From the NCBI GenBank assembly GCA_019744975.1, contig JAIETP010000003.1, positions 62,001 through 126,000 on the forward strand: a DNA stretch of 64,000 nucleotides. The letters run 5' to 3'. Source of the DNA: Burkholderiales bacterium (GTDB taxonomy: Bacteria > Pseudomonadota > Gammaproteobacteria > Burkholderiales > SG8-41). Positions within the stretch are counted from its first letter, which is position 1, and the number at the start of each line of letters is the position of its first letter. The notes below the pieces were generated by a model. It saw nothing but the letters and a program-made list of their open reading frames with translations, searched no databases and was not told the DNA's origin. Below are positions 1 to 60,523 of this stretch, in pieces. A program made the translations under genes and the position numbers.

Positions 1-1
1 C

Positions 2-934
2 GACTGCCTCGCCCCGCCGTGGACCCTGCCGCTGCTCGCACGCATGCCCGAAGTGCGCCACGGCATCAGCAATCCCTTCGGTCACGGCGCCTTCAGGCTG
101 GGCGAACGCCGCGCGCTCGGCAAAACACTGCGCGAACGCAATTACGATCATGCACTGGTGCTGCCGAACTCGTGGAAATCAGCGCTGATCCCGTGGTTTG
201 CCGGCATCCCGCTGCGTACTGGTTTTCGCGGCGAAGCACGCTGGGGCCTGCTCAACGACCTGCGCCGCCTCGATCCCGTCGCGCTGCCGCAGATGGTGCA
301 GCGGTTTGCCGCGCTGGCGCTGCCCGCCGGCACAACCCTGCCCTCGCCATTGCCGCTGCCGCTGCCGGCGCTGCAATCAACGGCGGCACAACAACAACAG
401 CTGCTGGCGCGACTCGGACTCAATACCGACAAAAACAAGGACAAACCGGTGATCGCATTCTGTCCGGGCGCCGAGTACGGGCCGGCCAAACGCTGGCCCG
501 AAGCCCATTTCGCAGCCCTCGCACGGATGCTCGCGGCGCGCGGCTGCGTGGTGTGGCTGGTCGGATCGCCAAAAGATCATGCCGTTGCCGAAACCATCGC
601 GCAGGGCAGCGCCGGCGCCTGCGTCAACCTCTGCGGTAAAACCGACATTGCCGAAGCCACCGACCTGCTCGCCGCGGCACGGCTGGTGGTGACCAACGAC
701 TCCGGACTGATGCACATTGCAGCCGCCGTCGGCCGTCCGGTGATCGCGCTCTATGGTTCCAGCTCGCCGCAGTTCACGCCGCCCCTCAGCCCCGATGCGC
801 GCATCCTCAAGCTGGACATTGAATGCAGCCCCTGCTTCAAACGCGAGTGCCCGCTGGGCCATTTCAAATGCCTGAACGACCTGTCGCCGGAGCGCGTTTT
901 CGCCGCAATCGATTTTGCTAGAATCTGCACCTGA
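2..934 (+). CDS. waaF: ADP-heptose:LPS heptosyltransferase II, 5' end outside window
   Basis: Adds the second heptose of the lipopolysaccharide inner core on the cytoplasmic face of the inner membrane. The frame is already open at base 2 (reading DCLAPPWTLPLLARMPEV), a typical WaaF N-terminal stretch, so only the first few dozen residues are cut off by the window edge. GT9-family signatures visible are FCPGAEYGPAKRWP (donor-binding loop), TNDSGLMHIAAA and the C-terminal Cys-rich CSPCFKRECPLGHFKCL that is characteristic of WaaF. The first in-window ATG (44) is internal. The truncation is an artefact of the window, not a pseudogene. A 269-bp inverted-repeat element begins 23 bp after the stop. 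Confidence 0.92.
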   Translation, partial: DCLAPPWTLPLLARMPEVRHGISNPFGHGAFRLGERRALGKTLRERNYDHALVLPNSWKSALIPWFAGIPLRTGFRGEARWGLLNDLRRLDPVALPQMVQRFAALALPAGTTLPSPLPLPLPALQSTAAQQQQLLARLGLNTDKNKDKPVIAFCPGAEYGPAKRWPEAHFAALARMLAARGCVVWLVGSPKDHAVAETIAQGSAGACVNLCGKTDIAEATDLLAAARLVVTNDSGLMHIAAAVGRPVIALYGSSSPQFTPPLSPDARILKLDIECSPCFKRECPLGHFKCLNDLSPERVFAAIDFARICT

Positions 935-957
935 TCCGCGCAGGCTGTAAAGCGCAC

Positions 958-1226
958 AGGGCCTGTTAACCATTATTTCATGAGATGCGTTGTGGCCAAA
1001 ATCGTCAGTGGCAAGGCGTTTGCCGCAGCTCATATCGAGAATATGAGCAAGGCAAACAACGCAGCCAGTGGCGATTTTGGCCTCAACCCGGAGGGACGGG
1101 ACGATTTGGCCCCAGTGCGTTGTCGCGCCTTCGCTTGTTTGCCAAGGGGCAAACGGCACTCGACGCTCCTAGCCCTGAGGCCAAATCGTCGCCGTCGCAC
1201 TCATGAAATAATGGTTAACAGGCCCT
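958..1226. repeat. MITE-like inverted-repeat element, copy A
   Basis: This 269-bp element begins AGGGCCTGTTAACCATTATT and ends with the reverse complement (AATAATGGTTAACAGGCCCT), giving terminal inverted repeats of about 27 bp. Inside are short hairpins, such as GTTTGCC/GGCAAAC and CATAT/ATATG, and repeated GGCCAAAATCG-type segments. The same sequence occurs in the opposite orientation at 16171-16439 and 29315-29595. No conserved reading frame is shared by the copies and no target-site duplication is obvious. The right end flows straight into AGGGAG, the probable ribosome-binding site of the gene at 1238. It fills the waaF-1238 gap. Best guess is a non-autonomous mobile element. Confidence 0.85.
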
Positions 1227-1237
1227 AGGGAGCTGCC

Positions 1238-1675
1238 GTGAAAAAATCCATGTTCGCGACGCCGCAGGACGCCGAGGCGGCCTTTTACGACGCCTTTGTC
1301 AAACGCGACCTCGACGCGATGATGGAAGTCTGGTCGGATGATGACGACAGTTACTGCGTGCATCCCGGCGGCGCGCGAGTGTCCGGCGTCGAACGCATTC
1401 GTGAATCATGGCGGCGGCTTTTCGCCGGCGGTCAGGACCTGCGCTTCAGCCTGCGTGACCAGCAGCTGATCCATACCATGATGCTCGCCGTACACAGCGT
1501 TTACGAACACATCTCCGTCGCCGGCCAGTCGCGCGCGCAGCAACCAATGATCGCCACCAACATCTATCAGCGCACCGAGCGCGGCTGGCGCATGGTGGCG
1601 CACCACGCCGCCGCGGCGCCAGCCTCGGTGAGGCAGGAAGCCGACACCGGGCCTGCGACCAAAACACTGCACTGA
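1238..1675 (+). CDS. NTF2/SnoaL-like (DUF4440-type) small protein
   Basis: A 145-residue protein with the NTF2-like alpha+beta cone fold used by many small ligand-binding proteins and enzymes. Family signs are an N-terminal AEAAFYDAFVKRDLDAMMEVW helix pair, CVHPGG, and a closing strand pair with GWRMVAHHAA. It starts at GTG 1238, placed 6 bases after AGGGAG, which lies at the junction with the upstream repeat. No substrate can be assigned. It resembles the YybH/SgcJ-like group of stand-alone ketosteroid-isomerase-fold proteins. The stop is followed by about 160 bp without a gene before the next start. Confidence 0.75.
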   Translation: MKKSMFATPQDAEAAFYDAFVKRDLDAMMEVWSDDDDSYCVHPGGARVSGVERIRESWRRLFAGGQDLRFSLRDQQLIHTMMLAVHSVYEHISVAGQSRAQQPMIATNIYQRTERGWRMVAHHAAAAPASVRQEADTGPATKTLH

Positions 1676-1839
1676 TTCCGTACGCTGCGCGCTGCAGCCA
1701 CAGCCGCAATTCCTGTCCGTATAGCGGATTTGGCGGCGTCATCGGGGCAAGCATTCGTTATACTGAATCAGTCCGTTTAGTGGACGTCGTTTCATGGCGG
1801 GCAGTCGCACACACCCCCGCACAACCACAACTGAAAACC

Positions 1840-2664
1840 ATGGCTGACACGAAACCTGTCACTGAACTTGCGCTGCCGCAGCGCAGCCCCAAGCCGCGCC
1901 GCCGCGGCATTACCTCGATGATCGACTTCGGCCCCGATACCTTCGGCTGGTCCGGCGGCGAACGCGACATTGCCGACCTGCTCGACGTTGCCGCGAACTA
2001 CATCGACTACGCCAAGATCTACGCCATGAACGCGCTGCTGATCCCCGGCGATGTGGTTAAACGTACAACCAGACTCTATCTCGACGCCGGCGTGATGCCC
2101 TTTGCCGGCGGCATCCTCTTTGAATACGCCTGGCACCGCAACGAAATCGACGGACTGATCGCGCTCTTGAAACGCCTCGCCATCCCGGGTCTGGAGATTT
2201 CCGAGAACTACGTGACGCTGTCGGAAGAAGAACGCACCCGCATGATCGACCGTTTCCAGAAGGCGGGCATCAAGATCGTCTATGAATTCGGCCGCAAAAA
2301 TCCCGAAGACCCGCTGAGCCTCGATTACCTTGAAGGCATCGTGCGTTCGGTCGCCGCACAGGGCATCCACCACGTCACTGTCGAACAATGCGAGATGGAC
2401 CTGCTGGCCAAGGATGCACCCGCGAGCATCAAAGCGCTGTCGACTCAGGACTGGTTTGATCATGTCGTGATCGAAGCAGACCCTTATCGTTTTCCGCAGC
2501 AGCATGTGCAGATGCTGCGCGACTTCGGCCGCGACGTGAACCTCGCCAACATCGCGCCGGGCCAGGTGCTGCGGCTCGAAGGTTTCCGCCAGGGTGTGGG
2601 CCGCGCGGTGAATTATTCGCTGCTGTCGGGCGACGACTCGCGCCCCGCCGGCATTGACAGATAA
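1840..2664 (+). CDS. ComA (phosphosulfolactate synthase)-family TIM-barrel protein
   Basis: 274 residues resembling phosphosulfolactate synthase, which in methanogens adds sulfite to phosphoenolpyruvate for coenzyme M synthesis. Visible family features are ANYIDYAKI (ComA has DFVKF here), GVMPFAGGILFEYA, GLEISENYVTLSEEER and IKIVYEFGRKNPEDP. The GWGT-type segment after the lysine is replaced by YAMN, so the substrate may differ. The frame is open back to a GTG at 1780, but ATG 1840 (MADTKP) is preferred; neither has a strong Shine-Dalgarno. No comB/comC is nearby. It lies just before a tricarballylate-dehydrogenase-like flavoprotein and a class II aldolase, suggesting a carboxylic-acid catabolic unit. 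Family sure, reaction unknown. Confidence 0.75.
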   Translation: MADTKPVTELALPQRSPKPRRRGITSMIDFGPDTFGWSGGERDIADLLDVAANYIDYAKIYAMNALLIPGDVVKRTTRLYLDAGVMPFAGGILFEYAWHRNEIDGLIALLKRLAIPGLEISENYVTLSEEERTRMIDRFQKAGIKIVYEFGRKNPEDPLSLDYLEGIVRSVAAQGIHHVTVEQCEMDLLAKDAPASIKALSTQDWFDHVVIEADPYRFPQQHVQMLRDFGRDVNLANIAPGQVLRLEGFRQGVGRAVNYSLLSGDDSRPAGIDR

Positions 2665-2669
2665 CACTT

Positions 2670-2686
2670 AAGTATTTGTTTTTATT
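2670..2686 (+). repeat. AT-rich intergenic motif, copy 1
   Basis: AAGTATTTGTTTTTATT, 5 bp after the ComA-like stop and about 20 bp before the next start. One of seven copies in the window (five exact, two with a variant 3' half). Confidence 0.8.
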
Positions 2687-2706
2687 ATATATTTTAGAGA
2701 TCCTTC

Positions 2707-4206
2707 ATGAGCAAAACCTTATTTGGAAATCCTGATGTCATCGTCGTCGGTGCCGGCAACGCCGCGGCCTGTGCAGCGCTGGCCGCGCGTGAAAGCGGCG
2801 GCCAGGTAATCATGCTGGAAGCAGCACCGATCGAAGAATGCGGCGGCAACAGCCGTTACACCGCAGGTGCGATGCGTGTGCAGTTCAACGGCGCCGACGA
2901 TCTCAAGCAGATCGTTCCCGACCTGACGGACGATGAAATCAAAAACACCGACTTCGGCACCTATACCGCCGATCAGTTCTACGACGACATGGGCCGCATC
3001 ACCCAGTACCGCACTGATCCCGATCTCTGCGAAATCCTCGTCTCACGCAGTCTCGAAACGCTGACGTGGATGCGCAAAAAAGGCGTCAAGTTCCAGGCCA
3101 GCTTCGGCCGCCAGGCGATGAAAATCGACGGCAAGTTCAAATTTTTCGGCGGCCTCGCCGCGGAAACCTGGGGCGGCGGTCCGGGCCTGGTCGACAACGA
3201 ACACAAGGCCTGCGAACGCGAAGGCATCAAGATTTATTACGAAACCCCGGCCACCGGCCTGATGCTGGACGACGACGGCAAGGTCATGGGTGTCAAAGCA
3301 AAACACCAGGGCAAAAATGTCGAGATCACGTGCAAGGCCGTGGTGCTGGCCTGCGGCGGTTTTGAATCCAATGCCGAGATGCGCACACGCTACCTCGGTG
3401 CGGGCTGGGACCTGGCCAAGGTGCGCGGCACCCGCTTCAACACGGGAGCCGGTATCCGCATGGCACTCGAAGCCGGCGCGCTGCCTTACGGCCACTGGTC
3501 GGGCTGTCATGCCGTGGGCTGGGACATGAATGCGCCGGCCTTCGGCGACCTCGCGGTCGGCGACAACTTCCAGAAACACAGCTACCCGATCGGCATCATG
3601 ATCAATGCCAACGGCGAACGTTTTGTCGACGAAGGTGCGGACATCCGCAACTACACCTACGCCAAATACGGCGCCGTGGTGCTGAACCAGCCGGGCATGT
3701 TCGCTTGGCAGGTTTTTGACGCGCAATCAATCCCGCTGCTGCGCGACGAGTACCGCATCAGGCAGGTCACCAAGGTGCGCGCCGACACGCTGGAAGAACT
3801 GGTGAAAAAACTGGAAGGCGTCAACGCCGAGGCCTGCCTGCGCGAGATCAGGGCCTACAACAAGGCGGTGCGCACCGAAGTGCCGTTCAACCTGACGGTC
3901 AAGGACGGCCGCCGCACCGAAGGCCTCAAAATCAACAAATCGAACTGGGCATTGACCATCGACCAGCCGCCGTTCGAGGCCTACGCGGTGACCTGCGGTG
4001 TCACCTTCACCTTCGGCGGCGTCAAGGTCAACAATGAAGGCAACGTCGAGGACACCGCCGGCAAACCGATCGCCGGCCTGTATGCCGCCGGTGAAATGGT
4101 TGGCGGGCTTTTTTATCACAACTACCCCGGCGGCACCGGACTGACCTCAGGGGCGGTTTTCGGCAAACTCGCCGGCGGCAGTGCCGGCCTGTACGCGAAA
4201 ACCTGA
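2707..4206 (+). CDS. tcuA: FAD-dependent tricarballylate dehydrogenase-like flavoprotein
   Basis: A 499-residue soluble flavoprotein of the fumarate reductase/succinate dehydrogenase group. TcuA oxidises tricarballylate to cis-aconitate. The N-terminal dinucleotide-binding motif is VIVVGAGNAAACAALAA with EECGGNSRYTAG following. The middle carries VVLACGGFESNAEMR, and the C-terminal FAD site is GLYAAGEMVGGLFYHNYPGGTGL. Length matches TcuA. Tricarballylate use normally needs TcuB (an electron carrier) and TcuC (a transporter), and neither is adjacent, so the true substrate could be another tricarboxylate or an unsaturated acid. It is probably cotranscribed with the ComA-like gene 42 bp upstream, and a class II aldolase follows 107 bp downstream. 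Confidence 0.8.
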   Translation: MSKTLFGNPDVIVVGAGNAAACAALAARESGGQVIMLEAAPIEECGGNSRYTAGAMRVQFNGADDLKQIVPDLTDDEIKNTDFGTYTADQFYDDMGRITQYRTDPDLCEILVSRSLETLTWMRKKGVKFQASFGRQAMKIDGKFKFFGGLAAETWGGGPGLVDNEHKACEREGIKIYYETPATGLMLDDDGKVMGVKAKHQGKNVEITCKAVVLACGGFESNAEMRTRYLGAGWDLAKVRGTRFNTGAGIRMALEAGALPYGHWSGCHAVGWDMNAPAFGDLAVGDNFQKHSYPIGIMINANGERFVDEGADIRNYTYAKYGAVVLNQPGMFAWQVFDAQSIPLLRDEYRIRQVTKVRADTLEELVKKLEGVNAEACLREIRAYNKAVRTEVPFNLTVKDGRRTEGLKINKSNWALTIDQPPFEAYAVTCGVTFTFGGVKVNNEGNVEDTAGKPIAGLYAAGEMVGGLFYHNYPGGTGLTSGAVFGKLAGGSAGLYAKT

Positions 4207-4313
4207 AAATAAAGCACGTCCCAATCCGCATGTTCCAGACTGTGAGACACCACCCTTGCGCCCGGCAGGTCCGGGCGTAGAATCCAGCGCACGATCCCCA
4301 GAAGGAGTCCGTC

Positions 4314-5090
4314 ATGAATGCCCCCGCAATCAAGGTCAACAAACCGGTTCGCGACCAGGTCAGCAAGGAAGAATGGGAAGCCCGCGTCAATCTCGCCGCC
4401 TGTTATCGCCTGATGGCGGAATTCGGCATGGTGGAAATGGTCGCCAACCACATTTCCGTGCGCGTACCGGGCAGTCACAATGAGTTCCTGATCAACCCGT
4501 ACGGCATGCTCTACGAGGAAATGACCGCCTCGTCGATGCTGAAAATCGACCTTGAAGGCAATGTGCTGTTCAACGCCACCGAATACGGCGTAAACGAAGC
4601 CGGCTTCGTGATCCACAGCGCCGTACATGCCGCGCGCCACGACGTGGATTGCATCATCCACACCCACACCCTCGCCGGCATGGCGGTGTCCGCGATGAAA
4701 TGCGGCATCATGCCGATCGCGCAATCTTCGATGCGCTTCCTCGACATCGCCTACCACGACTATGAAGGTGTCGCCCTGCGCCTCGAAGAACGTGAACGTC
4801 TGGTGCAGAACCTCGGCAACCGCGAAGCGATGGTACTGCGCAACCACGGCCTGCTGACCACCGGCGCCACCATCGCCGAATGTTTCAACAACATGTACCG
4901 GCTGGAGCGCGCCTGCCAGCTCCAGGTGATGGCATTGTCCTGCAACACCGAACTGCAATTGCCGCCGCAGGAAGTCACCCAGTACACCAATAACCTGATG
5001 CTGCCCGGCGTACGCCGCCGTTTCGGCCTGCTCGAATGGCCGGCCATGCTGCGCAAACTCGACCGTACCGATCCGTCGTACCGGGATTAA
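4314..5090 (+). CDS. class II aldolase/adducin-family protein
   Basis: 258 residues of the zinc-dependent class II aldolase/decarboxylase fold (fuculose-phosphate aldolase, adducin head). Metal ligands are visible as HTHTLAGMAV and NHGLLTTG; an early NHISVRVPG and DYEGVAL are also typical. The start ATG follows AAGGAG at a good distance. It ends the short gene group 1.8-5.1 kb and is followed by a strong terminator. The reaction is unknown: members of this branch near flavoproteins and CoA transferases often act on hydroxy or keto acids, which is inference here. Confidence 0.85.
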   Translation: MNAPAIKVNKPVRDQVSKEEWEARVNLAACYRLMAEFGMVEMVANHISVRVPGSHNEFLINPYGMLYEEMTASSMLKIDLEGNVLFNATEYGVNEAGFVIHSAVHAARHDVDCIIHTHTLAGMAVSAMKCGIMPIAQSSMRFLDIAYHDYEGVALRLEERERLVQNLGNREAMVLRNHGLLTTGATIAECFNNMYRLERACQLQVMALSCNTELQLPPQEVTQYTNNLMLPGVRRRFGLLEWPAMLRKLDRTDPSYRD

Positions 5091-5118
5091 AAGCGGAGAC
5101 TGAACAGTCAGCAGCAAC

Positions 5119-5147
5119 AAAAAAAGGCCCCGCGGGGCCTTTTTTTG
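5119..5147. terminator. bidirectional Rho-independent terminator
   Basis: An A-run, then AGGCCCC-GC-GGGGCCT, then a T-run of seven. It lies between the convergent class II aldolase and DUF4870 genes and would serve both. Confidence 0.93.
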
Positions 5148-5150
5148 TAC

Positions 5151-5195
5151 CTGCGCTTTTTGTGTCTGCGCTTTTTGTGTCCGCGCTTTTTGTGC
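5151..5195. repeat. tandem repeat, 3 x 15 bp
   Basis: Unit CTGCGCTTTTTGTGT; two exact copies and one with two changes. It sits between the terminator and the stop codon of the DUF4870 gene. Confidence 0.9.
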
Positions 5196-5204
5196 CGGCT
5201 TACT

Positions 5205-5549
5205 TTATTTCAACAAGCGGATCGCAAACGGGTATTTGTAATGCTCGCCCTTGGATACGGCGACAGCGGCGAGTATGCAGAACACCAGGTTGGCGATCAG
5301 CAGCAAGGGCATCAGCAGCGCGCCGATCAGGATCACCATCAGGATCCCGGCAACCACAAATGCGATCAGCATGGTGATCTGGAAATTCAGCGCCTCCTTG
5401 CCCTGCTCGTCGATGAAAGCCGACTGGTCTTTTTTGATCAGCCAGATGATCAACGCGCCGACGAAGCCGGATACGATGCCCAGCAGATGGGCGAGCATGG
5501 CCAGGTTGCGATCGTCGTTGCTCGTGCCCTGCGTCACGGGATCATTCAT
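5205..5549 (-). CDS. DUF4870 (Tic20-like) membrane protein
   Basis: A 114-residue inner-membrane protein. It begins with a polar N-terminus (NDDRNLAMLAHLLGI), followed by a helix, then the family hallmark WLIKKDQSAFIDEQGKEALNFQ, two long hydrophobic helices and a closing ISKGEHYKYPF-like tail (here VSKGEHYKYPF). This is the standard DUF4870 architecture, a small four-helix membrane protein of unknown function. It is transcribed towards the aldolase, with a shared terminator between them. Confidence 0.9.
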   Translation of the reverse strand: MNDPVTQGTSNDDRNLAMLAHLLGIVSGFVGALIIWLIKKDQSAFIDEQGKEALNFQITMLIAFVVAGILMVILIGALLMPLLLIANLVFCILAAVAVSKGEHYKYPFAIRLLK

Positions 5550-5657
5550 GGTTTTGTCTCCCTGTCATGGTTAGCGGTACGGATTACGCTTTTTCGCGAT
5601 TGTGGCACGGTCGCAGATACGGCGTAAACCGTCACTTAAACCGCGTACTATTCGCCC

Positions 5658-6647
5658 ATGGCAATATCGCAATCCGCATACCGAACACCACTCTGGCTGC
5701 CCGGCGGCAATCTGCAGACGCTGTATCCGGCACTGCTGGCGCGCCGCCCCGCCGTCGACTACCAGCGCCAGCGCTGGGATACGCCGGATGGTGATTTTAT
5801 TGATCTCGACTGGACTCAAAACCAGGATTCAGGATTGAGGATTGAGGATGGTGCGCGACCGCTGCTGGTGTTGTTTCACGGATTGGAGGGCAGTTCCAAC
5901 AGCCACTACGCCCGCGCGCTGATGCACGCCGCTGTCGCTGGTGGCTGGCGCGGGGTGGTCGTGCATTTCCGCGGTTGCAGCGGCGAACTGAACCGCCTGC
6001 CGCGCGCCTACCATTCCGGAGACAGCGCTGAAATCGACTGGATCCTGCGCCGCCTGAAACAGCAGCTGGAAGGCGCACCGCTGCATGCTGCCGGTGTCTC
6101 GCTCGGCGGCAATGCCCTGTTGAAATGGCTGGGTGAACAGGAGGGCGCCGCAACCGCAATACTGCGCAGCGCCGCCGCCATGTCAGCACCGCTGGATCTG
6201 CATGCCGCAGGTACCGCGCTGGAGCAGGGCTTCAACATGGTTTATACCAGACACTTCCTGGTTACCATGAAAAAGAAATCCCTGTTGAAACTGCGGATGC
6301 ATCCCCGCCTGTTCGATGCAGTGCGCGTACGCGCGGCCCGTACGCTGCGCGAATTCGATGACCTGGTCACCGCGCCGCTGCACGGCTTTGCCGGAGTGGA
6401 TGATTACTGGACACGCGCCAGCAGCAAACCCTGGCTTTCGCGTATTGCCGTACCGACATTGCTGCTGAATGCGTGTAATGATCCCTTTCTGCCTGCGGCT
6501 GCGTTGCCGCGGCCGCAGGAAATATCGGCCAGGGTAACGGCGACATTCACGAAAACGGGCGGCCATGTCGGATTCATCACCGGCGCCTTTCCCGGCACAC
6601 TGGGCTGGCCGGCGCAGGCCGTGATCGACTTCATGTCCGCAAACTGA
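5658..6647 (+). CDS. yheT: YheT-family alpha/beta hydrolase
   Basis: 329-residue predicted carboxylesterase of the YheT/ABHD1-3 group. Markers are the opening PLWLPGGNLQTLYPAL, LFHGLEGSSNSHYAR (oxyanion region), VVHFRGCSGELNRLPRAYHSGDSAEI, the nucleophile elbow GVSLGGNAL, and C-terminal NACNDPFLP (Asp) and GGHVGF (His). A run of 7-bp repeats (AGGATTC/AGGATTG, 5824-5851) lies in frame between WTQNQ and GARPLL, just before the core domain. Because 7 is not a multiple of 3, copy-number slippage there would break the frame. The substrate is unknown. Confidence 0.9.
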   Translation: MAISQSAYRTPLWLPGGNLQTLYPALLARRPAVDYQRQRWDTPDGDFIDLDWTQNQDSGLRIEDGARPLLVLFHGLEGSSNSHYARALMHAAVAGGWRGVVVHFRGCSGELNRLPRAYHSGDSAEIDWILRRLKQQLEGAPLHAAGVSLGGNALLKWLGEQEGAATAILRSAAAMSAPLDLHAAGTALEQGFNMVYTRHFLVTMKKKSLLKLRMHPRLFDAVRVRAARTLREFDDLVTAPLHGFAGVDDYWTRASSKPWLSRIAVPTLLLNACNDPFLPAAALPRPQEISARVTATFTKTGGHVGFITGAFPGTLGWPAQAVIDFMSAN

Positions 6648-6689
6648 TGTATAACTTGATATATAACTAATTGTTTTTATTGAAAATTA

Positions 6690-8090
6690 ATGAAAAAACC
6701 CGAGGCACCACCAGCGGCCATCTTCAAGGCTTATGACATCCGCGGCATCGTCGGCGACACCCTGACCGTCGCCGGCACCGAAGCCATCGGTCGCGCCATC
6801 GGCGCCGAAGCGCTGGCACGCGGCCGCCATGCCGTGGTCATCGGCCGCGATGGCCGTCTCTCCGGTCCCGAACTCGCCGCGGCTCTGGCGCGCGGCCTTC
6901 AGGCCAGCGGCATTGATGTCATCGACGTCGGCCAGGTCGCAACACCGATGCTGTATTTCGCCGCACACGAACTCGACACCCTGTCCGGGGTGATGGTGAC
7001 CGGCTCGCACAACCCGCCGCAATACAACGGCCTGAAAATGATGCTCGCCGGCGACACCCTGGCCGGCGACGCCATACAGGCCCTGCGCCAGCGGCTGCTC
7101 GACAACAACCTCAGCAACGGCGCCGGCAGCTACCGCAGCCATGACATCCGCGCCGCCTACCTTGAACGCATCACCGGTTCGCGCATTACCGGTTCAATCA
7201 AACTCGCCCGGCCCATGCGCATCGCCATCGATTGCGGCAATGGCATCGCCGGCGCCACTGCGCCGGAACTCTATCGCCGGCTGGGCTGCACGGTGGAAGA
7301 ACTGTATTGCGAGGTCGATGGCACCTTCCCCAACCACCACCCCGATCCGTCGCAGCCGAAAAACCTGCAGGACCTGATTGCAGCATTACGGGCGGGCGAT
7401 GCCGAAATCGGACTGGCCTTCGACGGCGACGGTGACCGGCTGGGCGTGGTCACCAAGTCGGGAAAAATCATTTATCCCGACCGCCAGCTGATGCTGTTTG
7501 CCGCCGACGTCTTGTCGCGTGAGCCTGGTGCCGAAATCATTTTCGACGTCAAATGCACCCGCCACCTGTTCAGCTGGATCCGCGAACACGGCGGCAAACC
7601 ACTGCTGTGGAAAACAGGGCATTCCTTCATCAAGAAAAAGCTCAAGGAAAGCGGCGCGCCACTGGCCGGTGAAATGAGCGGGCACATTTTTTTCAGGGAG
7701 CGCTGGTACGGTTTTGACGACGGCATGTATGCCGGCGCACGTCTGCTGGAAATCCTCAGCCGCAGCGCCGACCCCTGCGCCATCCTTGAAGCGCTGCCGG
7801 ATGCGATCAACACGCCGGAGCTGCAATGGCAGCTGAACGAGGGTGAAAACTACAGCCTGATGGATAATCTGCAGAAAACCGCAAAGTTCACCGGCGCGCA
7901 GGAAATCATCACCATCGACGGCCTGCGCGTGGAATACGCCGACGGTTTCGGTCTGGCACGACCCTCAAACACGACACCGATCATCGTGCTGCGCTTCGAA
8001 GCCGACAACGAAGCGGCGCTGCAGCGCATCCAGGCGGACTTCCGGCGGGTGTTGCTCGCCGTCAAACCGGGCGCAACACTGCCCTTCTGA
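6690..8090 (+). CDS. algC: phosphomannomutase/phosphoglucomutase
   Basis: A 466-residue alpha-D-phosphohexomutase of the AlgC/ManB type, interconverting hexose 6- and 1-phosphates for LPS, exopolysaccharide and nucleotide-sugar synthesis. Four domains are recognisable by their loops: FKAYDIRGIVG at the N-terminus, the catalytic phosphoserine loop TGSHNPPQYNG, the Mg-binding DGDGDRLG, the sugar-specificity loop GEMSGHIFF, and the C-terminal phosphate-binding RPSNTTPIIVLRFE. Length is normal for AlgC. It is preceded by an AT-rich leader (ATATAACTAATTG...) and converges on the response regulator downstream. Confidence 0.92.
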   Translation: MKKPEAPPAAIFKAYDIRGIVGDTLTVAGTEAIGRAIGAEALARGRHAVVIGRDGRLSGPELAAALARGLQASGIDVIDVGQVATPMLYFAAHELDTLSGVMVTGSHNPPQYNGLKMMLAGDTLAGDAIQALRQRLLDNNLSNGAGSYRSHDIRAAYLERITGSRITGSIKLARPMRIAIDCGNGIAGATAPELYRRLGCTVEELYCEVDGTFPNHHPDPSQPKNLQDLIAALRAGDAEIGLAFDGDGDRLGVVTKSGKIIYPDRQLMLFAADVLSREPGAEIIFDVKCTRHLFSWIREHGGKPLLWKTGHSFIKKKLKESGAPLAGEMSGHIFFRERWYGFDDGMYAGARLLEILSRSADPCAILEALPDAINTPELQWQLNEGENYSLMDNLQKTAKFTGAQEIITIDGLRVEYADGFGLARPSNTTPIIVLRFEADNEAALQRIQADFRRVLLAVKPGATLPF

Positions 8091-8103
8091 ACGATTGCCG
8101 TGC

Positions 8104-8137
8104 TTTTCAGGAATCCCCCGGACCGGCCGCCTGAAAA
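8104..8137. terminator. possible terminator hairpin between convergent genes
   Basis: TTTTCAGG and CCTGAAAA are inverted around an 18-nt GC-rich loop, just after the hexomutase stop. There is no good T-run, so this is a weak call. Confidence 0.35.
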
Positions 8138-8140
8138 CGA

Positions 8141-8620
8141 TTATTCACCACGCCCGTCGCGCCTGAAGGGATTGCCAGGCGGCAGCTCGTTCAGCACCGC
8201 CCAGAATGCGCCGACCTGTCTCACCGCCTCGACAAAGGCCTGGAACTTCACCGGCTTGACCACATACGCATTGATGTTCAGGTCATAACAGTTGCGCAAA
8301 TCCTGGTCTTCGCGCGAGGACGTCATCACCACCACCGGGATCTTTTTCAGCAACGGGTCCCCTTTCAGCTGCCGCAGCACTTCCAGCCCGTCGACGCGGG
8401 GCATTTTAAGATCCAGCAGCACAACAGCCGGGCTGCCATCCGGCCGACCGGCAAATTCACCGCGACGGTACAGATAGTCCAGCGCCTCGGCGCCATCCCG
8501 CAAATGCAGCACCTCATTGGCCATGTGCGACAGCGCCTTCAGCGTGAGTTCGGCGTCATGGGCATCATCTTCAACGAGCAGTATACGGGCCAGGGTATTG
8601 ATGGTTTTCTCCTCGATCAC
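8141..8620 (-). CDS. single-domain (Rcp1-type) response regulator
   Basis: A 159-residue stand-alone receiver domain. Conserved acidic pair VEDDAHDAEL, phospho-acceptor Asp in VVLLDLKMPRVDGLEVL, Thr/Ser in VVMTSS and Lys in VVKPVKF are all present. The insertion between strands (ALDYLYRRGEFAGRPDG) is the signature of Rcp1/CheY-like partners of phytochrome-type kinases. There is no output domain, so it relays phosphate or binds another protein. The best start is GTG 8620, 17 bp after the kinase stop, so the two genes are almost certainly cotranscribed. Confidence 0.9.
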   Translation of the reverse strand: MIEEKTINTLARILLVEDDAHDAELTLKALSHMANEVLHLRDGAEALDYLYRRGEFAGRPDGSPAVVLLDLKMPRVDGLEVLRQLKGDPLLKKIPVVVMTSSREDQDLRNCYDLNINAYVVKPVKFQAFVEAVRQVGAFWAVLNELPPGNPFRRDGRGE

Positions 8621-8637
8621 GTTTGCCGTGGCCGCGG

Positions 8638-10446
8638 TTACGCCGCCCGCAGCGTGAAATAAAACGTGGCACCACGCTCCAGCGTCGCTTCCGCCCAGGT
8701 CCGGCCACCGTGCCGCGCGATGATGCGCCGGACATTGGCGAGGCCAATGCCCGTGCCCTCGAACTGGTCTGCCCGGTGCATGCGTTGGAACACACCAAAA
8801 AGTTTATCTGCGTATTTCATTTCAAATCCGACACCGTTGTCGCGCACAAACAGGATCAACCGCCCTTCTTCCTCACCCAGGCTGCCGATTTCAATCCGTG
8901 CCGGATCCCGGGGGCGGGTATATTTCACCGCATTCCCCAGCAGGTTGGCAAACACCTGCCTCAGCATCACCGGATCACCACGAACGACCGGCAGCGCTTG
9001 TACGGTCCAGGCGATGTTGCGCTGCCCTGTATCCGGCGCCATGGCCTGGATGGTTTCCTCGACCAATGCGTCGAGCGCAACACTGCTTTCAATCAGCTCG
9101 ACCCGTCCCATGCGTGAAAACGCCAGCAGATCATCGATGAGCTGCCCCATTTTCCGGCTGGCATCGGTCACCACCTGCAGATAACGCTGCGCCTCGCCAG
9201 TCAGCCGCCCCTGGCTCTCGCCGGCCAGCAATTCGATATAACCGTCGATATGGCGCAGCGGCATGCGCAGATCATGTGACACCGAATAGGCAAACGATTC
9301 CAGTTCCCTGTTGGTGGCCGCCAGCTGCGCGGTGCGCTCCGTCACGCGGCGCTCAAGATCGGTATTGAGTTGCTCGATCACCTCGCGCTGCTCCTGGATC
9401 AGGCCGAAATCGTGGTCCAGGGCGGCCATCAGCCCGCCGATTTCGCCGCGCGGATAAGGCTGACCGATGCGCGCGCTGAAATCGCCACCGCTGAAGCGAG
9501 TGACCGCTGCATTGATGCGTGCAATCTGCCGACGGATGCCCATCTCGGACAATGCCCAGGCACCAACAACCACCAGTAACAGTACGACCGCCAGCGCAGT
9601 CAGCGACTGCTTTAGGTTGCGGTTCGCCACCGTGAGCAAGTCCGTACGGGCAACCCCGACCAGGACACGCAGGCCGGCTTCCGGGAATTCCGGCAAATCG
9701 CTGACAGCCCAGATCCGCGACACTCCGCCAAAGGTGATGTCCTGTTGCACATTCTCGCCGCGGCCGTTCAGCGCAAAACGCGCCAGTGGCGTGTCCGCGA
9801 TGGAGGAGCCGGGTAATTTCCCGCCCTCGGGGTTCCACGACAGGATCATGCCTTGGCTGTCCATCAAGGCAATCACCGCGCCGTTGAACGGCAGGGTTTT
9901 TGCGCGGGACCGCATGAATTCCTCGAGGTTCAGCGAAGCCAGCAACACAAACCGCGGCTCACCGGTTTCATTCCGCACTGCATAGGCCACCTGCATGACC
10001 GCAATGCCGGTCAGCCTACCGAATACGGGTTCAACTGCCAGTGGCGGGGCATCCGGCTTCATCACCGCCTGGAAATAGCGGCGGTCGGTGAGATTCAGCT
10101 TGCGGCCGGTGCGCAGCGAATCACAAAACAGATTGCCGTCCGGCAGGATCGTCAGTATCCCCGTGTATTGCGGATGTTCCTTCAGCACATCATTCAGAAA
10201 GATGGAACAGGCGGCCTTGTCCGGCCGGTCAAAATCCCTTGCCCTGGACAAACCGTAATGCAATTGCGCAGTGCCGCGCACCATGTCTTTCAGTTCATGC
10301 GCCACACGTCCGGCCTCGGCGCTCAGCCGGTGCGCTGCTTCGGCAATTTCGGCATCACGACGTTCGACGAAATGGAACACGCTCACCAGCGCGGGAATCA
10401 GCGTTGCGAACATGATCAGCAGCAACAATCGGACGCGAATACTCAT
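8638..10446 (-). CDS. dCache sensor histidine kinase
   Basis: A 602-residue membrane sensor kinase. TM1 is at residues 5-25. A double-Cache periplasmic sensor (about 30-275) contains LPDGNLFCDS and NLTDRRYFQAV. TM2 is near 280-300, with a HAMP domain near 300-352 and a coiled coil to 385. HisKA has the acceptor His391 in FAYSVSHDLRMPLRHIDGY. The ATPase domain shows NLLGNAVKYT, DNGVGFEM and GTGIGLANV. The SHDLRMPLRHI form is typical of kinases that signal to Rcp1-type receivers such as the one encoded 17 bp downstream. The ligand is unknown; dCache domains often bind amino acids or organic acids. Confidence 0.92.
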   Translation of the reverse strand: MSIRVRLLLLIMFATLIPALVSVFHFVERRDAEIAEAAHRLSAEAGRVAHELKDMVRGTAQLHYGLSRARDFDRPDKAACSIFLNDVLKEHPQYTGILTILPDGNLFCDSLRTGRKLNLTDRRYFQAVMKPDAPPLAVEPVFGRLTGIAVMQVAYAVRNETGEPRFVLLASLNLEEFMRSRAKTLPFNGAVIALMDSQGMILSWNPEGGKLPGSSIADTPLARFALNGRGENVQQDITFGGVSRIWAVSDLPEFPEAGLRVLVGVARTDLLTVANRNLKQSLTALAVVLLLVVVGAWALSEMGIRRQIARINAAVTRFSGGDFSARIGQPYPRGEIGGLMAALDHDFGLIQEQREVIEQLNTDLERRVTERTAQLAATNRELESFAYSVSHDLRMPLRHIDGYIELLAGESQGRLTGEAQRYLQVVTDASRKMGQLIDDLLAFSRMGRVELIESSVALDALVEETIQAMAPDTGQRNIAWTVQALPVVRGDPVMLRQVFANLLGNAVKYTRPRDPARIEIGSLGEEEGRLILFVRDNGVGFEMKYADKLFGVFQRMHRADQFEGTGIGLANVRRIIARHGGRTWAEATLERGATFYFTLRAA

Positions 10447-10758
10447 GCACCCAGACTACTGGAAAACCCGAAAGCAGGGAAAGGTATATGCCTTACCAGC
10501 AGTACAAACAGGCAGCCGGTATCAACATGCGGACACTACCAACTTGAGGATGCCGTGAAAGATGTCTGCAAGCGCCGTTCAGCGCTTCGCGGGAGTCAAG
10601 GTGCCGCGGTTGTAATCCTTGTCGCCGGGCATCACACAGCGGCCAATCCCGAACAGGCACTCTGGGCCAGCGCTGCAGGTGCAAACAGCGCAAGCGGCTG
10701 GCATTGCCGCAGCAATGCTCATGAAATCATGGCCGGGTACGGTCGCGTTTCTTGAGGG
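10447..10758. other. 312-bp region between kinase and alaS
   Basis: Region between the kinase start and the alaS stop. The only thing worth noting is a short Cys-rich frame on the minus strand (separate entry). No terminator with a T-run or known repeat was seen. Confidence 0.5.
10579..10722 (-). CDS. candidate small Cys-rich protein (47 aa)
   Basis: A minus-strand frame opening 36 bp after the alaS stop. It contains a dense cysteine cluster, CAVCTCSAGPEC, followed by C in GIGRCVMPG, and ends GTLTPAKR. Five Cys fall within about 20 residues, which could bind metal or form disulfides. There is no clear Shine-Dalgarno and I recognise no family, so this could be chance. If real, it would be read through from alaS. 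Confidence 0.25.
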   Translation of the reverse strand: MSIAAAMPAACAVCTCSAGPECLFGIGRCVMPGDKDYNRGTLTPAKR

Positions 10759-13413
<2,655 letters not shown>

Positions 13414-13521
13414 TTAAGGTGACTGGTGAAAACCAGATAAGGCGCAGATTTTAAACCAGTTTTACCGCTGCATCCGCAAGCAGCAGCCCGCGCCGGAACC
13501 ATTACGGTCCGGCGGTCTCGC

Positions 13522-13737
13522 TCAGCGTGCGCTGAGGCGTGCCATACGTTCCGCCCAACGCTGTGTCGCAGCGTCTGCTTCAGCCGTTTGCGAAGCGGCC
13601 ACAGAAACGACGGGCACCGGTGCCGCAATAACTTCCTGGATTGCAAAAAAACCGGTCGACAGCAGATCGCAGGCGGCGATGGTCATTGCCGTCCAGAAAA
13701 CCAGCAAGTCTTTGTTTTTAAACAATTCTTTAATCAC
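13522..13737 (-). CDS. small membrane-anchored hypothetical protein
   Basis: 71 residues: short basic N-terminus (MIKELFKNKDLL), one hydrophobic segment (VFWTAMTIAACDLLSTGFF), then an Ala/Val-rich linker and a polar C-terminus ending RWAERMARLSAR. It lies between recX and alaS on the same strand, and its start is 30 bp after the recX stop. No family recognised. The start ATG has GAAGGAGAATG-like purines upstream, which supports translation. Confidence 0.5.
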   Translation of the reverse strand: MIKELFKNKDLLVFWTAMTIAACDLLSTGFFAIQEVIAAPVPVVSVAASQTAEADAATQRWAERMARLSAR

Positions 13738-13767
13738 CGCATTCTCCTTCTTATCTCCTGCTTATGC

Positions 13768-14220
13768 TTACTCATCTTTTGCCAAACCGCGGAGCAACTT
13801 CGTAATGACTTCGCTGCTGAATCCACGCCCCAGTAAAAACCGCGCCTGTTTCGCACGCTCCGCCGCACCCGCCGGCAGCACCTTGAATTTCCTGCGCCAC
13901 ACATCCCGCGCTGCTTCCAGTTCACCGTCCTTCAGTGCCGCGACCGTTGAATTGATCACTTCAGCAGCTACACCTTTTACCTGCAGATCGCGGCGGATGC
14001 GTGCCATCCCGTAACGACTGCGCCGCGCATGCACCATCTGCTCTGCCGCGCGCTGTTCCGACAACCAGCCGCGCTGCGTGAAATCATCCAGGACCTCCGC
14101 GATTTCCGCCTCTGACTCAGCGTGCGGCGCGAGCTTTAGCGTCAACTCGTGACGGGTATACTCGCGCCGCGCCAAGTGCCTGAGTGCACGGGCCCTGAGA
14201 CTGGGTTCTTTAGAACTCAT
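13768..14220 (-). CDS. recX: RecA regulator RecX
   Basis: 150 residues of three-helix repeats that bind in the groove of RecA filaments and limit their growth. Family features are the opening LRARALRHLARREYTRHEL, FTQRGWLSEQRAAEQMVHARRSRYGMARIRRDL and the terminal FLLGRGFSSEVITKLLRG. It is placed 164 bp downstream of recA, the usual arrangement. That gap shows neither a terminator nor another gene, so recX may be expressed by readthrough from recA. Confidence 0.93.
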   Translation of the reverse strand: MSSKEPSLRARALRHLARREYTRHELTLKLAPHAESEAEIAEVLDDFTQRGWLSEQRAAEQMVHARRSRYGMARIRRDLQVKGVAAEVINSTVAALKDGELEAARDVWRRKFKVLPAGAAERAKQARFLLGRGFSSEVITKLLRGLAKDE

Positions 14221-14384
14221 CTCATAAACGGCCTGCGCTTGCCATGACTTTGTCGCCCGCTATGTTCCTCCTCGCCTTACCTTTCGGTAATGTCTCGTCG
14301 GAGCCTCGCGTGCTTCGCGTCATGTCTGCGCTCGGCGCGTTTCTGAAATGAGTTCGCTTTGGTTGATAACAGAAATCAGATCGC

Positions 14385-15467: not shown

Positions 15468-15557
15468 GATGCCCTCTCAGTTCTTTTTCCGGTTCAGTCG
15501 TGCAGTTCAGTCGGAACAGCACTTAGTGGTGATGCTTTTTGCTCAGGTGATGGCCGC

Positions 15558-15598
15558 ATTATACATAAATTTTCAGAAAATGCTGGGTATTTATACAG
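15558..15598 (-). promoter_or_regulatory. recA promoter with LexA (SOS) box
   Basis: On the minus strand, CTGTATAAATACCCAG (15583-15598) fits the CTG-N10-CAG LexA operator. It is followed about 20 nt later by a perfect TATAAT (15558-15563), so LexA would cover the -35 region. It lies about 95-130 nt before the recA start codon. Confidence 0.8.
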
Positions 15599-15634
15599 TA
15601 GTGTGTAAATCACCAGATAAATAATTAAATTATC

Positions 15635-15651
15635 AATAAAAACAAATACTT
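15635..15651 (-). repeat. AT-rich intergenic motif, copy 2
   Basis: Exact AAGTATTTGTTTTTATT on the minus strand, 5 bp after the pncC stop codon and upstream of the recA promoter. Confidence 0.8.
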
Positions 15652-15656
15652 ATAAT

Positions 15657-16157: not shown

Positions 16158-16170
16158 CGTCAGTTCTCCC

Positions 16171-16439
16171 AGGGTCTGCTAACCATTATTTCATGAGTGC
16201 GACGGCGACGATTTGGCCTCAGGGCTAGGAGCGTCGAGTGCCGTTTGCCCCTTGGCAAACAAGCGAAGGCGCGACAACGCACTGGGGTCAAATCGTCCCG
16301 TCCCTCCGGGTTGTGGCCAAAATCGCCACTGGCTGCGTTGCTTGCCTTGCCCATATTCTCGATATGGGCCGCAGCAAGCGCCTTACCTCTGACGATTTTG
16401 GCCACAACGCATCTCACGAAATAATGGTTAGCAGACCCT
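16171..16439. repeat. MITE-like inverted-repeat element, copy B
   Basis: 269 bp, opposite orientation to copy A and the same length. Its ends read AGGGTCTGCTAACC and GGTTAGCAGACCCT. Relative to copies A and C (AGGGCCTGTTAACC / GGTTAACAGGCCCT), two positions have changed, and both ends carry the matching change. An internal hairpin GTTTGCC/GGCAAAC is at 16243-16260. The pgpA stop codon (TAG, minus strand, 16438-16440) uses the last bases of the element. Confidence 0.87.
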
Positions 16440-16932: not shown

Positions 16933-16943
16933 GAACGCGCCGC

Positions 16944-25028: not shown

Positions 25029-25123
25029 GACAGTCCTATCGATAAGGTTTTGGTATTACAACCATGGTATCGATTGAGTCAACGCTCCGCAAGCGTTACA
25101 ATGCCGGTCACCAATTGACCTAT

Positions 25124-25140
25124 AAGTATTTGTTTTTATT
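25124..25140 (+). repeat. AT-rich intergenic motif, copy 3
   Basis: Exact AAGTATTTGTTTTTATT, 17 bp beyond the thiL stop codon but in the opposite orientation to thiL. Confidence 0.8.
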
Positions 25141-25157
25141 ATGTTTTTTATGCCAGC

Positions 25158-30416: not shown

Positions 30417-30440
30417 GAAAAACAATCGCTAAATAGTTGT

Positions 30441-30456
30441 TTAAAATCAAATACTT
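30441..30456 (-). repeat. AT-rich intergenic motif, copy 4 (variant)
   Basis: AAGTATTTGATTTTAA on the minus strand; its first two A bases are the last two bases of the ribH TAA stop codon. Confidence 0.7.
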
Positions 30457-30943
30457 ATATATTTTCCGCGGCCGACCGGAAGTGTTTCAGCAGATGCGCC
30501 ATTTCGATCGCCGCCAGCGCGCAGTCGAGCCCCTTCTGCGCCATGCGCACCTCCGCCTGGCCGTCGTTCTCGGTGGTCAGGATGCCGTTGGCAATCGGCA
30601 CACCGGTTTCAAGCTGCACGTCGGTGATGCCGCGCGCCGATTCATTCGACACGATTTCAAAATGATAAGTCTCGCCGCGGATCACCGCGCCCAGCGCCAC
30701 CAGCGCGTCGTACTGGCCGCTGATTGCCATCGCCTTCAGCGTCAGCGGGATTTCCAGCGCGCCGGGTACGGTGACGATGGTCATGTCCTTTTTCGCCACG
30801 CCATGTTTGACCAGCGCCGCGGTGCAGCTCGACAGCAGTCCGTCACCGATGTCGATGCTGAAACGCGCCATCACGATGCCGATGCGCAGGCCCGCGCCAT
30901 TGTGCTCCGGTTCCAGTTCTTCAATATCGTCGTAACGTGCCAT
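30455..30943 (-). CDS. ribH: 6,7-dimethyl-8-ribityllumazine synthase
   Basis: 162 residues from ATG 30943 ([11 protein letters not shown]). The longer frame runs back through a repetitive tract and encodes nothing family-like. Condenses the butanone phosphate from RibB with the pyrimidine from RibD. Motifs: [64 protein letters not shown]. The catalytic His is in GETYHFE. Part of the ribD-ribE-ribBA-ribH run. Confidence 0.96.
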
Positions 30944-36527: not shown

Positions 36528-37988
36528 ATGGCCTTCGAACTGATGGCGCCGCTGATGTTTGTCGGCTTGGCGGCATTCCTGCTGCTGGGTTACCCGGTCG
36601 CCTTCGCCCTCGCCGCCAACGGCCTGCTGTTCGCCTTCATCGGTTTTGAACTCGGCATGCTGCAACCGGAACTGCTGCAGGCATTGCCGCAGCGCCTGTT
36701 CGGCATCATGGCCAATCCGCTGCTGCTGGCGATCCCGTTTTTCACCTTCATGGGCCTGGTGCTCGAACGCAGCGGCATGGCCGAGGACCTGCTCGACACC
36801 GTCGGCCAGCTGTTCGGCCCGGTGCGCGGGGGAGTCGCCTACGCAGTGATTTTTGTCGGCGCGCTGCTCGCCGCGACCACCGGCGTCATCGCCGCGTCGG
36901 TGATTGCGATGGGCCTGATCTCGCTGCCGGTGATGCTGCGTTACAACTATTCACCAAGGCTCGCCAGCGGCGTGATCTGCGCCTCGGGCACGCTGGCGCA
37001 GATCATTCCGCCGTCGATCGTGCTGATCGTGCTCGCCGATGTGCTCGGCGCCACGGTAGGCGACGTTTATGCCGGCGCGCTGCTGCCCGGCCTGCTGCTG
37101 GTGGCGCTGCTCGCCGGTTATGTGTTCATTACTTCGATGCTCAATCCCGCCGCCGCTCCGGCGCTGCCGCCGGAAGCGCGGCGGCTGCGCGGCGCACCGC
37201 TGTGGCGCCATGCCGCACTGGTCATGGTGCCGCCGCTGGTGCTGATATTCCTCGTGCTGGGTTCGATTTTTGCCGGCATCGCCACGCCCACCGAAGGCGG
37301 CGCGCTGGGTGCAGTCGGCGCACTGGCGCTGGCGGCGGCCAAACGGCGGCTGAACATGAAAGTGGTGCGCGAAGCGCTGGATGCAACCACAAGGCTGTCG
37401 AGTTTCGTGATGTTCATCGTCATCGGCTCCTCCGTGTTCGCGCTGGTGTTCCGCGCCGTCAACGGCGACCTGTGGGTGGAGCGGCTGTTCACGCTGGTGC
37501 CGGGCGGCGAGGTCGGTTTCCTGATCGTCGTACACCTGATGATTTTTGTGCTCGGCTTTTTCATCGACTTTTTCGAAATCGCCTTCATCCTGCTGCCGCT
37601 GCTGGCGCCGGTGGCGGCCAAACTCGGCATTGATCCGGTGTGGTTCGCGGTGATGATCGGCATCAATCTGCAGACCTCATTCCTGACCCCGCCTTTCGGT
37701 TTTTCATTGTTCTACCTGCGCAGCGTCGCACCGCCGCAGATCAAAACCGCCGACATCTACAGGGGCATCATTCCGTTTGTGATCGTGCAGCTCATCGCGC
37801 TGCTGCTGGTGGTGTTTTATCCGCAACTGGTCACGGTGTTCAACGATGCAAAACCGGCACGCGACAGCAGCAACATCGAAATCAACATTCCAGTCGACAA
37901 CACCGCCGATAAACCCGATGCCGACGGCCTGACGCGGGAAGAAAAATCGGCTTCGGACATCGAGCGCATGCTCCGCGACGGAAAGTAA
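36528..37988 (+). CDS. dctM: TRAP transporter large permease
   Basis: 486 residues from ATG 36528, which has GGAGG 5 bases upstream; the frame is open 69 codons earlier through the repeat. Twelve or so transmembrane helices with DctM markers NPLLLAIPFFTFMGLVLERSGMAEDLLD, ATTGVIAASVIAMGLISLPVMLR, GTLAQIIPPSIVLIVLADVLG and PPFGFSLFYLRSVAPP. A polar 60-residue C-terminal extension (NDAKPARDSSNIEINIPVDN...ERMLRDGK) is unusual. Imports an organic acid using an ion gradient; the substrate is unknown. The MR/MLE-family enzyme downstream suggests a sugar acid or related compound. Confidence 0.94.
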   Translation: MAFELMAPLMFVGLAAFLLLGYPVAFALAANGLLFAFIGFELGMLQPELLQALPQRLFGIMANPLLLAIPFFTFMGLVLERSGMAEDLLDTVGQLFGPVRGGVAYAVIFVGALLAATTGVIAASVIAMGLISLPVMLRYNYSPRLASGVICASGTLAQIIPPSIVLIVLADVLGATVGDVYAGALLPGLLLVALLAGYVFITSMLNPAAAPALPPEARRLRGAPLWRHAALVMVPPLVLIFLVLGSIFAGIATPTEGGALGAVGALALAAAKRRLNMKVVREALDATTRLSSFVMFIVIGSSVFALVFRAVNGDLWVERLFTLVPGGEVGFLIVVHLMIFVLGFFIDFFEIAFILLPLLAPVAAKLGIDPVWFAVMIGINLQTSFLTPPFGFSLFYLRSVAPPQIKTADIYRGIIPFVIVQLIALLLVVFYPQLVTVFNDAKPARDSSNIEINIPVDNTADKPDADGLTREEKSASDIERMLRDGK

Positions 37989-37995
37989 TAAACTC

Positions 37996-38012
37996 AATAA
38001 AAACAAATACTT
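37996..38012 (-). repeat. AT-rich intergenic motif, copy 5
   Basis: Exact motif (complement AATAAAAACAAATACTT on the plus strand), 7 bp after the dctM stop. Confidence 0.8.
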
Positions 38013-38041
38013 ATTTTTTCAAATCCATCCTTTAAAAAACC

Positions 38042-49026: not shown

Positions 49027-49046
49027 GTTGTTCCTCCGTATATTAT

Positions 49047-49062
49047 AAGTATTTGATTTTAA
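49047..49062 (+). repeat. AT-rich intergenic motif, copy 6 (variant)
   Basis: AAGTATTTGATTTTAA, the same variant as copy 4, between pmbA and the DctP gene, 21 bp before the DctP start codon. Confidence 0.7.
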
Positions 49063-49104
49063 ATAATATTTTATTAAGGGGCGAAAGTCATGTACCCGCC
49101 AGCG

Positions 49105-60190: not shown

Positions 60191-60485
60191 GGTACACCTC
60201 GCTTTTCTGGCGCTTTGATTGCGCCCGTAGCCAACACTTGCATAAGCCGTACCCGAACGCAGGCCGACAGGCGCGGGGAGACGGCGGACCAGCGGCATGC
60301 CGCGGCGTATTGGTGTCGAAAGGGTGTCGAAGCCCGGACAGCGCCGGCGATTTCACGGCAAAACCGATTGCCAATTATTGCCGTCTCTGGCGGGAGACAA
60401 AAAAACTCAACAAAAACAAAAGCTTGCTCTGGCGTCCTGGAGAATGTCGGGTTCCGGCGACAGTTTTGGCGCGAACACCCACCAT

Positions 60486-60502
60486 AAGTATTTGTTTTTA
60501 TT
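60486..60502 (+). repeat. AT-rich intergenic motif, copy 7
   Basis: Exact AAGTATTTGTTTTTATT. Not beside any annotated stop codon, unlike most other copies. Confidence 0.8.
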
Positions 60503-60523
60503 TATATTTTTTTGCTGGCACGA

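Follow-up and report, generated by a model that had tools for sequence, protein, structure and literature searches.

The sites and their gene neighborhood

The window, that is, the whole stretch of 64,000 nucleotides that was analysed, contains a short motif that recurs between genes. The features at issue are listed here with their weight-matrix scores; neighboring genes are named by their Pfam families.

2669..2695, plus strand: putative IHF-type site, exact 17-mer, 46.8 bits; flanked by a ComA-family gene (ends 2664) on one side and by an FAD-binding oxidoreductase gene (starts 2707) on the other
6664..6690, plus strand: putative IHF-type site, 47.6 bits; directly upstream of the gene at 6690-8090
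13705..13731, plus strand: weaker putative IHF-type site, 31.1 bits; flanked by the alanyl-tRNA synthetase gene and the called gene that follows it
15626..15652, minus strand: putative IHF-type site, exact 17-mer, 53.8 bits; between a cinA-like gene and recA
25123..25149, plus strand: putative IHF-type site, exact 17-mer, 48.1 bits; 3' of an AIR-synthase-family gene
30431..30457, minus strand: putative IHF-type site, 44.8 bits; overlaps the ribH stop codon, before nusB
37987..38013, minus strand: putative IHF-type site, exact 17-mer, 48.3 bits; neighbors are a DctM-type transporter gene and an enolase-superfamily gene
49046..49072, plus strand: putative IHF-type site, 52.3 bits; 5' of a DctP-type binding-protein gene
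60400..60426, minus strand: weaker putative IHF-type site, 31.8 bits; back to back with the next site, 77 bp apart
60485..60511, plus strand: putative IHF-type site, exact 17-mer, 52.1 bits

The exact 17-mer AAGTATTTGTTTTTATT is found at 2670 (+), 15635 (-), 25124 (+), 37996 (-) and 60486 (+), and the variant AAGTATTTGATTTTAAA at 30440 (-) and 49047 (+). These are the five exact and two variant copies reported in the initial annotation, which had placed the minus-strand variant at 30441. Three of the four weaker matches given there also belong to the set, at shifted coordinates: 6669 should read 6665, a strong member (47.6 bits), 13712 should read 13706 (31.1 bits), and 60406 should read 60409 (31.8 bits). 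The fourth, at 44270, was rejected, as the weight matrix gives no score above 18 bits there.

With up to three mismatches allowed, the motif has 10 matches in the window, compared with a mean of 0.03 in shuffled sequence. Throughout the 3.69 Mb genome, 240 places (123 forward, 117 reverse) lie within two mismatches of the 17-mer, 53 of them exact copies, and the reversed pattern used as a control gives 0 places. The claim that the motif recurs beyond chance is therefore borne out, and the genome-wide count excludes the outcome that would have told against it, a lack of any excess. The motif is real, non-random and largely intergenic, and it is probably bound by a protein.

Anatomy of the element

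An 864 kb sample of the genome, which includes the window, was searched with an iterated home-made weight matrix, the training sequence being the same as the sequence in which sites were counted. At a threshold of about 23.7 bits, which two places of the reversed control also exceed, 109 sites were found. Common to them are TAA-NNNN-TTG-W-TT, an 8-nt spacer and a T-tract. In order, the consensus reads TAA, four variable bases with a bias to GTAT, TTG, A or T, TT, and then TTATTGAT followed by the T-rich tract. The whole element is about 27 bp long; the earlier description had caught the core alone.

The anatomy does not depend on the matrix. A matrix-free scan for TAA-N(k)-TTGWTT, with k running from 0 to 10, counts 13, 7, 4, 6, 101, 9, 3, 3, 3, 9 and 12 matches in the same sample (genome G000), the lone peak being at k=4. 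The same lone peak is present in G041 (41 matches versus 0-9 at the other spacings), G022 (15 versus 0-2), G005 (16 versus 0-5) and G046 (19 versus 0-4). The base following TTG in TAANNNNTTGbTT is T in 63 cases, A in 38, C in 3 and G in 1, and T occupies base 9 in 61% of the 109 sites. In the 101 matches selected by the core only, the T fraction is 0.56-0.82 at positions +22 to +26 from TAA.

Mobile miniature repeats with an IHF site inside them, similar to Correia elements or REP/RIP units, would also place many near-identical copies between genes. RIP and BIME units are small intergenic repeats of this kind, present in many copies and carrying IHF sites. Correia elements are likewise intergenic, are present in many copies and have an IHF-type core; that they carry an IHF site (PMC2229807, in excerpt) counts for such an origin. 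Unlike in Correia, RIP and BIME elements, no repeat unit flanks the sites described here. Across 66 aligned seed sites, the information content stays at or below 0.22 bits everywhere beyond -10 to +30, so that there is no conserved unit of greater length, and a longer mobile repeat is ruled out by the absence of conserved flanks. Species that share 81% AlaRS identity have, furthermore, kept the positions of the sites. A mobile origin is thus scarcely credible.

The sites as putative IHF-binding sites

The element resembles the binding site of the DNA-bending protein IHF (integration host factor), for which the consensus TAAnnnnTTGATW is given (PMC8407004, in excerpt). The sites known from E. 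coli and phage lambda have the same parts: a TAA-N4-TTG core, W, TT, a variable spacer and, on the TTG side, a T-tract like that of lambda H'. Along 601 bp of lambda attP, the pattern WATCARNNNNTTR has exactly three matches, which we take to be H1, H2 and H', and the distance of the T-tract from the core is the same in H' as in the sites described here.

The genome encodes two proteins of family PF00216, and the closest solved relatives identify one as IHF-alpha (E 8e-39 to 1ihf_A) and the other as IHF-beta (E 2.2e-33 to 1ihf_B). For HU, a packaging protein related to IHF, the best scores are 1e-17 (alpha) and 5e-19 (beta). IHF is the only DNABII protein found in this genome.

The resemblance is not complete. 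Base 9 is mostly T here and A in the classical consensus. The copies are unusually close to a single consensus for IHF sites, with 53 exact 17-mers in one genome. The lambda sites all score below the 23.7-bit threshold: the top place in attP (18.9 bits) overlaps H2 off register, H2 in register comes second with 16.6 bits, H' has 3.5 bits, and H1 is outside the best eight attP places. The T at base 9 and the low scores of the lambda sites could mean that some other architectural or regulatory protein with an IHF-like recognition sequence binds here. Such a protein would, however, have to share with IHF the length of the spacer, both arms and the H'-like T-tract, in a genome that encodes IHF-alpha and IHF-beta. 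In addition, one E. coli GeF-seq data set gives WAWCAACnnnTT, i.e. A or T at base 9 (PMC8407004, in excerpt), so that T seems to be tolerated at this position there. Another protein is therefore improbable, and the motif very likely represents a strong IHF-binding site.

Position relative to genes

Genes were called with a home-made caller, by whose coverage about one eighth of the 864 kb sample is non-coding. Outside the called genes lie 86 of the 109 sites: 59 in tandem gaps, 19 in divergent and 8 in convergent ones. The other 23 are inside called genes, and in 13 cases each end of the gene is more than 100 bp away. The initial statement that no copy is inside a gene thus holds for the window and fails for the larger sample. 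The distances to stop codons given for the window sites are correct, with gene ends taken from the home-made caller. The preference for stop codons that these distances had suggested does not extend to the sample: 16 of the 59 tandem-gap sites are within 10 bp of the upstream stop codon or overlap it, against 14.2 expected if sites were placed uniformly within their own gaps, and there is thus no such preference. Neither is there an orientation bias, as 28 sites in tandem gaps point with the genes and 31 against them; 58 of the 109 sites are on the plus strand.

A transcription terminator or an RNA element would likewise be T-rich and often close to gene ends. A terminator would not be expected in both orientations and with no preference for stop codons. 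The eight window sites that were folded have z-scores between -1.41 and 0.78, which is nothing unusual, and none of the 21 terminator-like matches in positions 1-20000 of the window falls on the four sites there. The fold scores and the terminator scan rule out a terminator or RNA fold as a candidate, and this explanation has next to nothing left in its favor.

The strongest rival to the architectural role proposed below is a large but ordinary IHF regulon, in which each site aids the adjoining promoter or operon and the sites are many because many genes use IHF. The mostly intergenic location (86 of 109) fits this explanation, as does the fact that 14 of 15 relatives have a site shortly 5' of their orthologue of the 6690 gene. 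A promoter-like match at 2661-2688 (+), with 9 of 12 positions, overlaps the site at 2670. On the other hand, the orientation of sites in tandem gaps is unbiased and 8 of the 109 sites are in convergent gaps. A -10-like TAnnAT lies within 18 nt 5' of 3 of the 109 sites and on the other side of 6, and promoter-like matches in positions 1-20000 of the window number 10 compared with 6.2 in shuffled sequence. Regulation gene by gene would also not predict the even spacing described in the next section. Ordinary regulation is, on balance, a rather unlikely explanation for the set as a whole. The motif was also considered as a promoter element and rejected, TAnnAT being close upstream of just 3 of the 109 sites.

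Even spacing of the sites

The 105 spacings in the G000 sample have a mean of 7.75 kb and a coefficient of variation (CV) of 0.549. Random placement gives CVs of 0.97 (genome-wide), 1.17 (in gaps weighted by their length) and 0.95 (one site per gap), and 0 of 1000 draws reached the observed value in each of these three nulls. Both tails of the distribution are depleted relative to length-weighted placement: 2 spacings are shorter than 1 kb where 24 are expected, and 1 is longer than 20 kb where 9.5 are expected. The evenness persists against a fourth null at thresholds of 23.8, 30, 36 and 42 bits.

In other genomes, spacing was determined with a weight matrix adapted to each. In G041, from the same genus (44 sites in 400 kb), the CV is 0.611, reached by 1, 0 and 0 of 1000 draws in the three nulls; in G022, from genus g9 (25 sites in 80 kb), it is 0.515, reached by 0, 0 and 12. 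Two smaller sets give higher values: 0.721 in G046, also from g9 (24 sites and 23 spacings in 240 kb; reached by 73, 5 and 74 of 1000), and 0.627 in G005, from g6 (15 sites and 14 spacings in 100 kb; reached by 57, 14 and 103). Three samples show clear evenness; in the two small ones it is weak. The density of sites across the five samples is one per 3.2-10 kb.

Even spacing on both strands is also a property of DNA uptake signals (DUS/USS), which are evenly spread, unoriented and occur about once per kb. Sites of such a type would be enriched via a competence machinery that prefers fragments carrying them, and the even spacing and the balance of strands (58 of 109 on plus) agree with this. 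The sites described here are, however, about three to ten times sparser, at one per 3.2-10 kb; they are mostly intergenic, and they have the anatomy of IHF sites, in which the spacer letters vary and the letters of the IHF consensus stay. An uptake function is therefore very improbable.

Conservation of site positions

Both the presence and the orientation of sites can be compared at orthologous gene boundaries. There are 90 gene pairs that are adjacent in both G000 and G041. Of these, 79 have no site in either genome and 7 have a site in both; a site is present only in G000 in 2 pairs and only in G041 in another 2 (p = 1.7e-7). All 7 shared sites have kept their orientation, and the four spacer bases differ in 5 of the 7. 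Position is thus maintained within the genus while the letters of the spacer drift. This comparison is that of one pair of genomes, as nine other pairs yielded 0 or 1 usable gene pair each.

The ribH-nusB boundary was read in 30 loci out of 68 genomes with a match. A site is present in all 16 loci from the window's genus. In g9 (4 of 4) and g6 (1 of 1) there is also a site, which points the other way and lies immediately 3' of the ribH stop codon or 4 bp away from it. There is no site in the 9 loci from g3, g4, g5, g7 and g8. At this boundary, the only one compared between genera, orientation therefore differs. The same boundary bears on the suggestion that the two 3' variants of the motif mark different gene classes: at this one boundary checked, it is not borne out, as the site carries GATTTT or GTTTTT depending on the species of the genus.

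Of the 15 closest named relatives (L071-L085), all but L072 have the site upstream of their orthologue of the gene at 6690. The four spacer bases vary freely among these sites. In a further 65 loci of this gene, no site was found wherever upstream DNA is present. In several of the L071-L085 loci, a -10-like box (e.g. TATAAT or TAAAAT) directly precedes the site, so that transcripts of these loci may begin within it. This is not a general feature, given the 3 of 109 sites with a TAnnAT close upstream. The relatives of this betaproteobacterial gene include metagenome bins under the names Bordetella parapertussis or Klebsiella pneumoniae (L074, L077, L099 and L149); these titles look like mislabels.

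Distribution of the sites and of HU

The family to which the window's genome belongs is represented by 74 genomes. The HU genes detected have E values of 2e-46 or lower, with the exception of a partial gene in G048 (1.6e-30); IHF-type proteins score between 1e-14 and 1e-18 against the HU profile. HU is present in 22 genomes, all 22 of which have 0-2 matches to the core, and is undetected in 52. All 38 family genomes with at least 20 core matches (22-435 each) are without detected HU. They comprise all 21 genomes of g1, 3 of g7, 1 of g6 and 13 of the 14 of g9. Such large sets, which among the sampled genomes occur in four genera of a single family, also set these sites apart from known IHF sites.

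The converse does not hold. Three HU-negative genomes (G033, G001 and G044) have 8-9 core matches, G033 of g9 having 8, and 11 have none: all 4 of g8, 4 of the 5 of g4, and G344, G043 and G030. These 11 genomes rule out HU loss as a sufficient cause of the sites. Assembly gaps play a part in the HU counts, since G335 and G054 have no DNABII match at all; many of the genomes are incomplete. The G+C content of the samples, which may bear on the absence of sites from g4 and g8, is 0.615-0.667 in these two genera, 0.57-0.63 in the site-rich g1, g6 and g9, and 0.47 in the nearly site-free G033.

In 275 other genomes of the class, where HU-negative means an E value above 1e-18 or no match, the 30 HU-negative genomes have a mean of 2.7 core matches versus 2.1 in the 245 others (p = 0.11), so that there is no clear excess outside the family. 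The genome richest in sites outside the family, G153, has 25 core matches with 0 in the control and is HU-positive. HU loss as a general cause is ruled out by these two results. HU loss may nevertheless be a condition for the expansion of sites in this family. The association with HU is at the level of genera and may reflect few events. An AlaRS gene tree covers 41 of the 74 genomes; as it splits g7 and g9, it is unfit for counting HU losses.

Several further observations concern these genomes. In the tree of the AlaRS gene (window 10759-13401), g7 and g9 are each split between two positions, a hint of gene transfer or of unsettled genus limits. A third DNABII match, not HU-like by its score, is present in G033, G056 and G341. 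The one in G033 (C113:578-844, L214), the single nearly site-free genome of g9, has the look of a diverged IHF-beta. G153 and G260, from a distant HU-positive genus of family f95, have 25 and 11 matches to the core, against 0 in the control; their sites are perhaps a second, independent set.

A possible role in chromosome architecture

Each bend at an IHF site is made by one IHF dimer, and a single IHF heterodimer would bend each of the sites sharply. The common function of the sites would then be in the architecture of the chromosome, as regular bends or loop anchors, and not in the control of particular genes. We infer such a function because the sites occur in every class of gap and in either orientation, and are spread more evenly than expected by chance. 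As IHF is the sole DNABII protein found, it may have taken over a part of the packaging that is usually shared with HU. Binding by IHF, bending and the architectural role are all inferred from sequence. If IHF is indeed the protein bound, an architectural role is the somewhat favored explanation; binding and role taken together are just on the probable side.

A more specific proposal, possible although short of probable, is that these bacteria, being without HU, carry an evenly spaced lattice of strong IHF sites, which would be a sequence-encoded ruler for nucleoid bends or loop boundaries. The ruler would have about one mark per 8 kb in the window's genome and one per 3 kb in the 80 kb sample from g9. 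Selection would act on the spacing and the place of a site, and not on its direction or on the adjoining gene.

In E. coli, IHF bends its cognate site by more than 160 degrees, and its motif occurs about 3000 times; topological domains there measure 10-400 kb, with barriers that are randomly placed and whose identity is yet to be established (PMC6907758, in excerpt). The sites described here differ from known IHF sites in being evenly spaced, in keeping their positions across species, and in that lambda's sites fall below the matrix threshold. The evenness together with the near-uniform strong consensus is what would be new here. Keyword searches of an open-access library, from which subscription journals are mostly absent, gave no paper on such a set of sites by title or abstract, and this does not exclude that one has been described. 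A sequence-encoded nucleoid structure would become directly testable with a motif that combines even spacing, conserved positions and a named candidate protein. The genera that have HU and no sites, and those that have sites and no detected HU, amount to a natural experiment on the division of labor between HU and IHF.

The two spacings below 1 kb in the G000 sample both belong to back-to-back pairs, a minus-strand site followed by a plus-strand one, 77 and 78 bp apart. One pair is in the window (60409-60502) and the other in contig C1 of the same genome (92868 and 92946). Such a pair is perhaps a composite site for two dimers.
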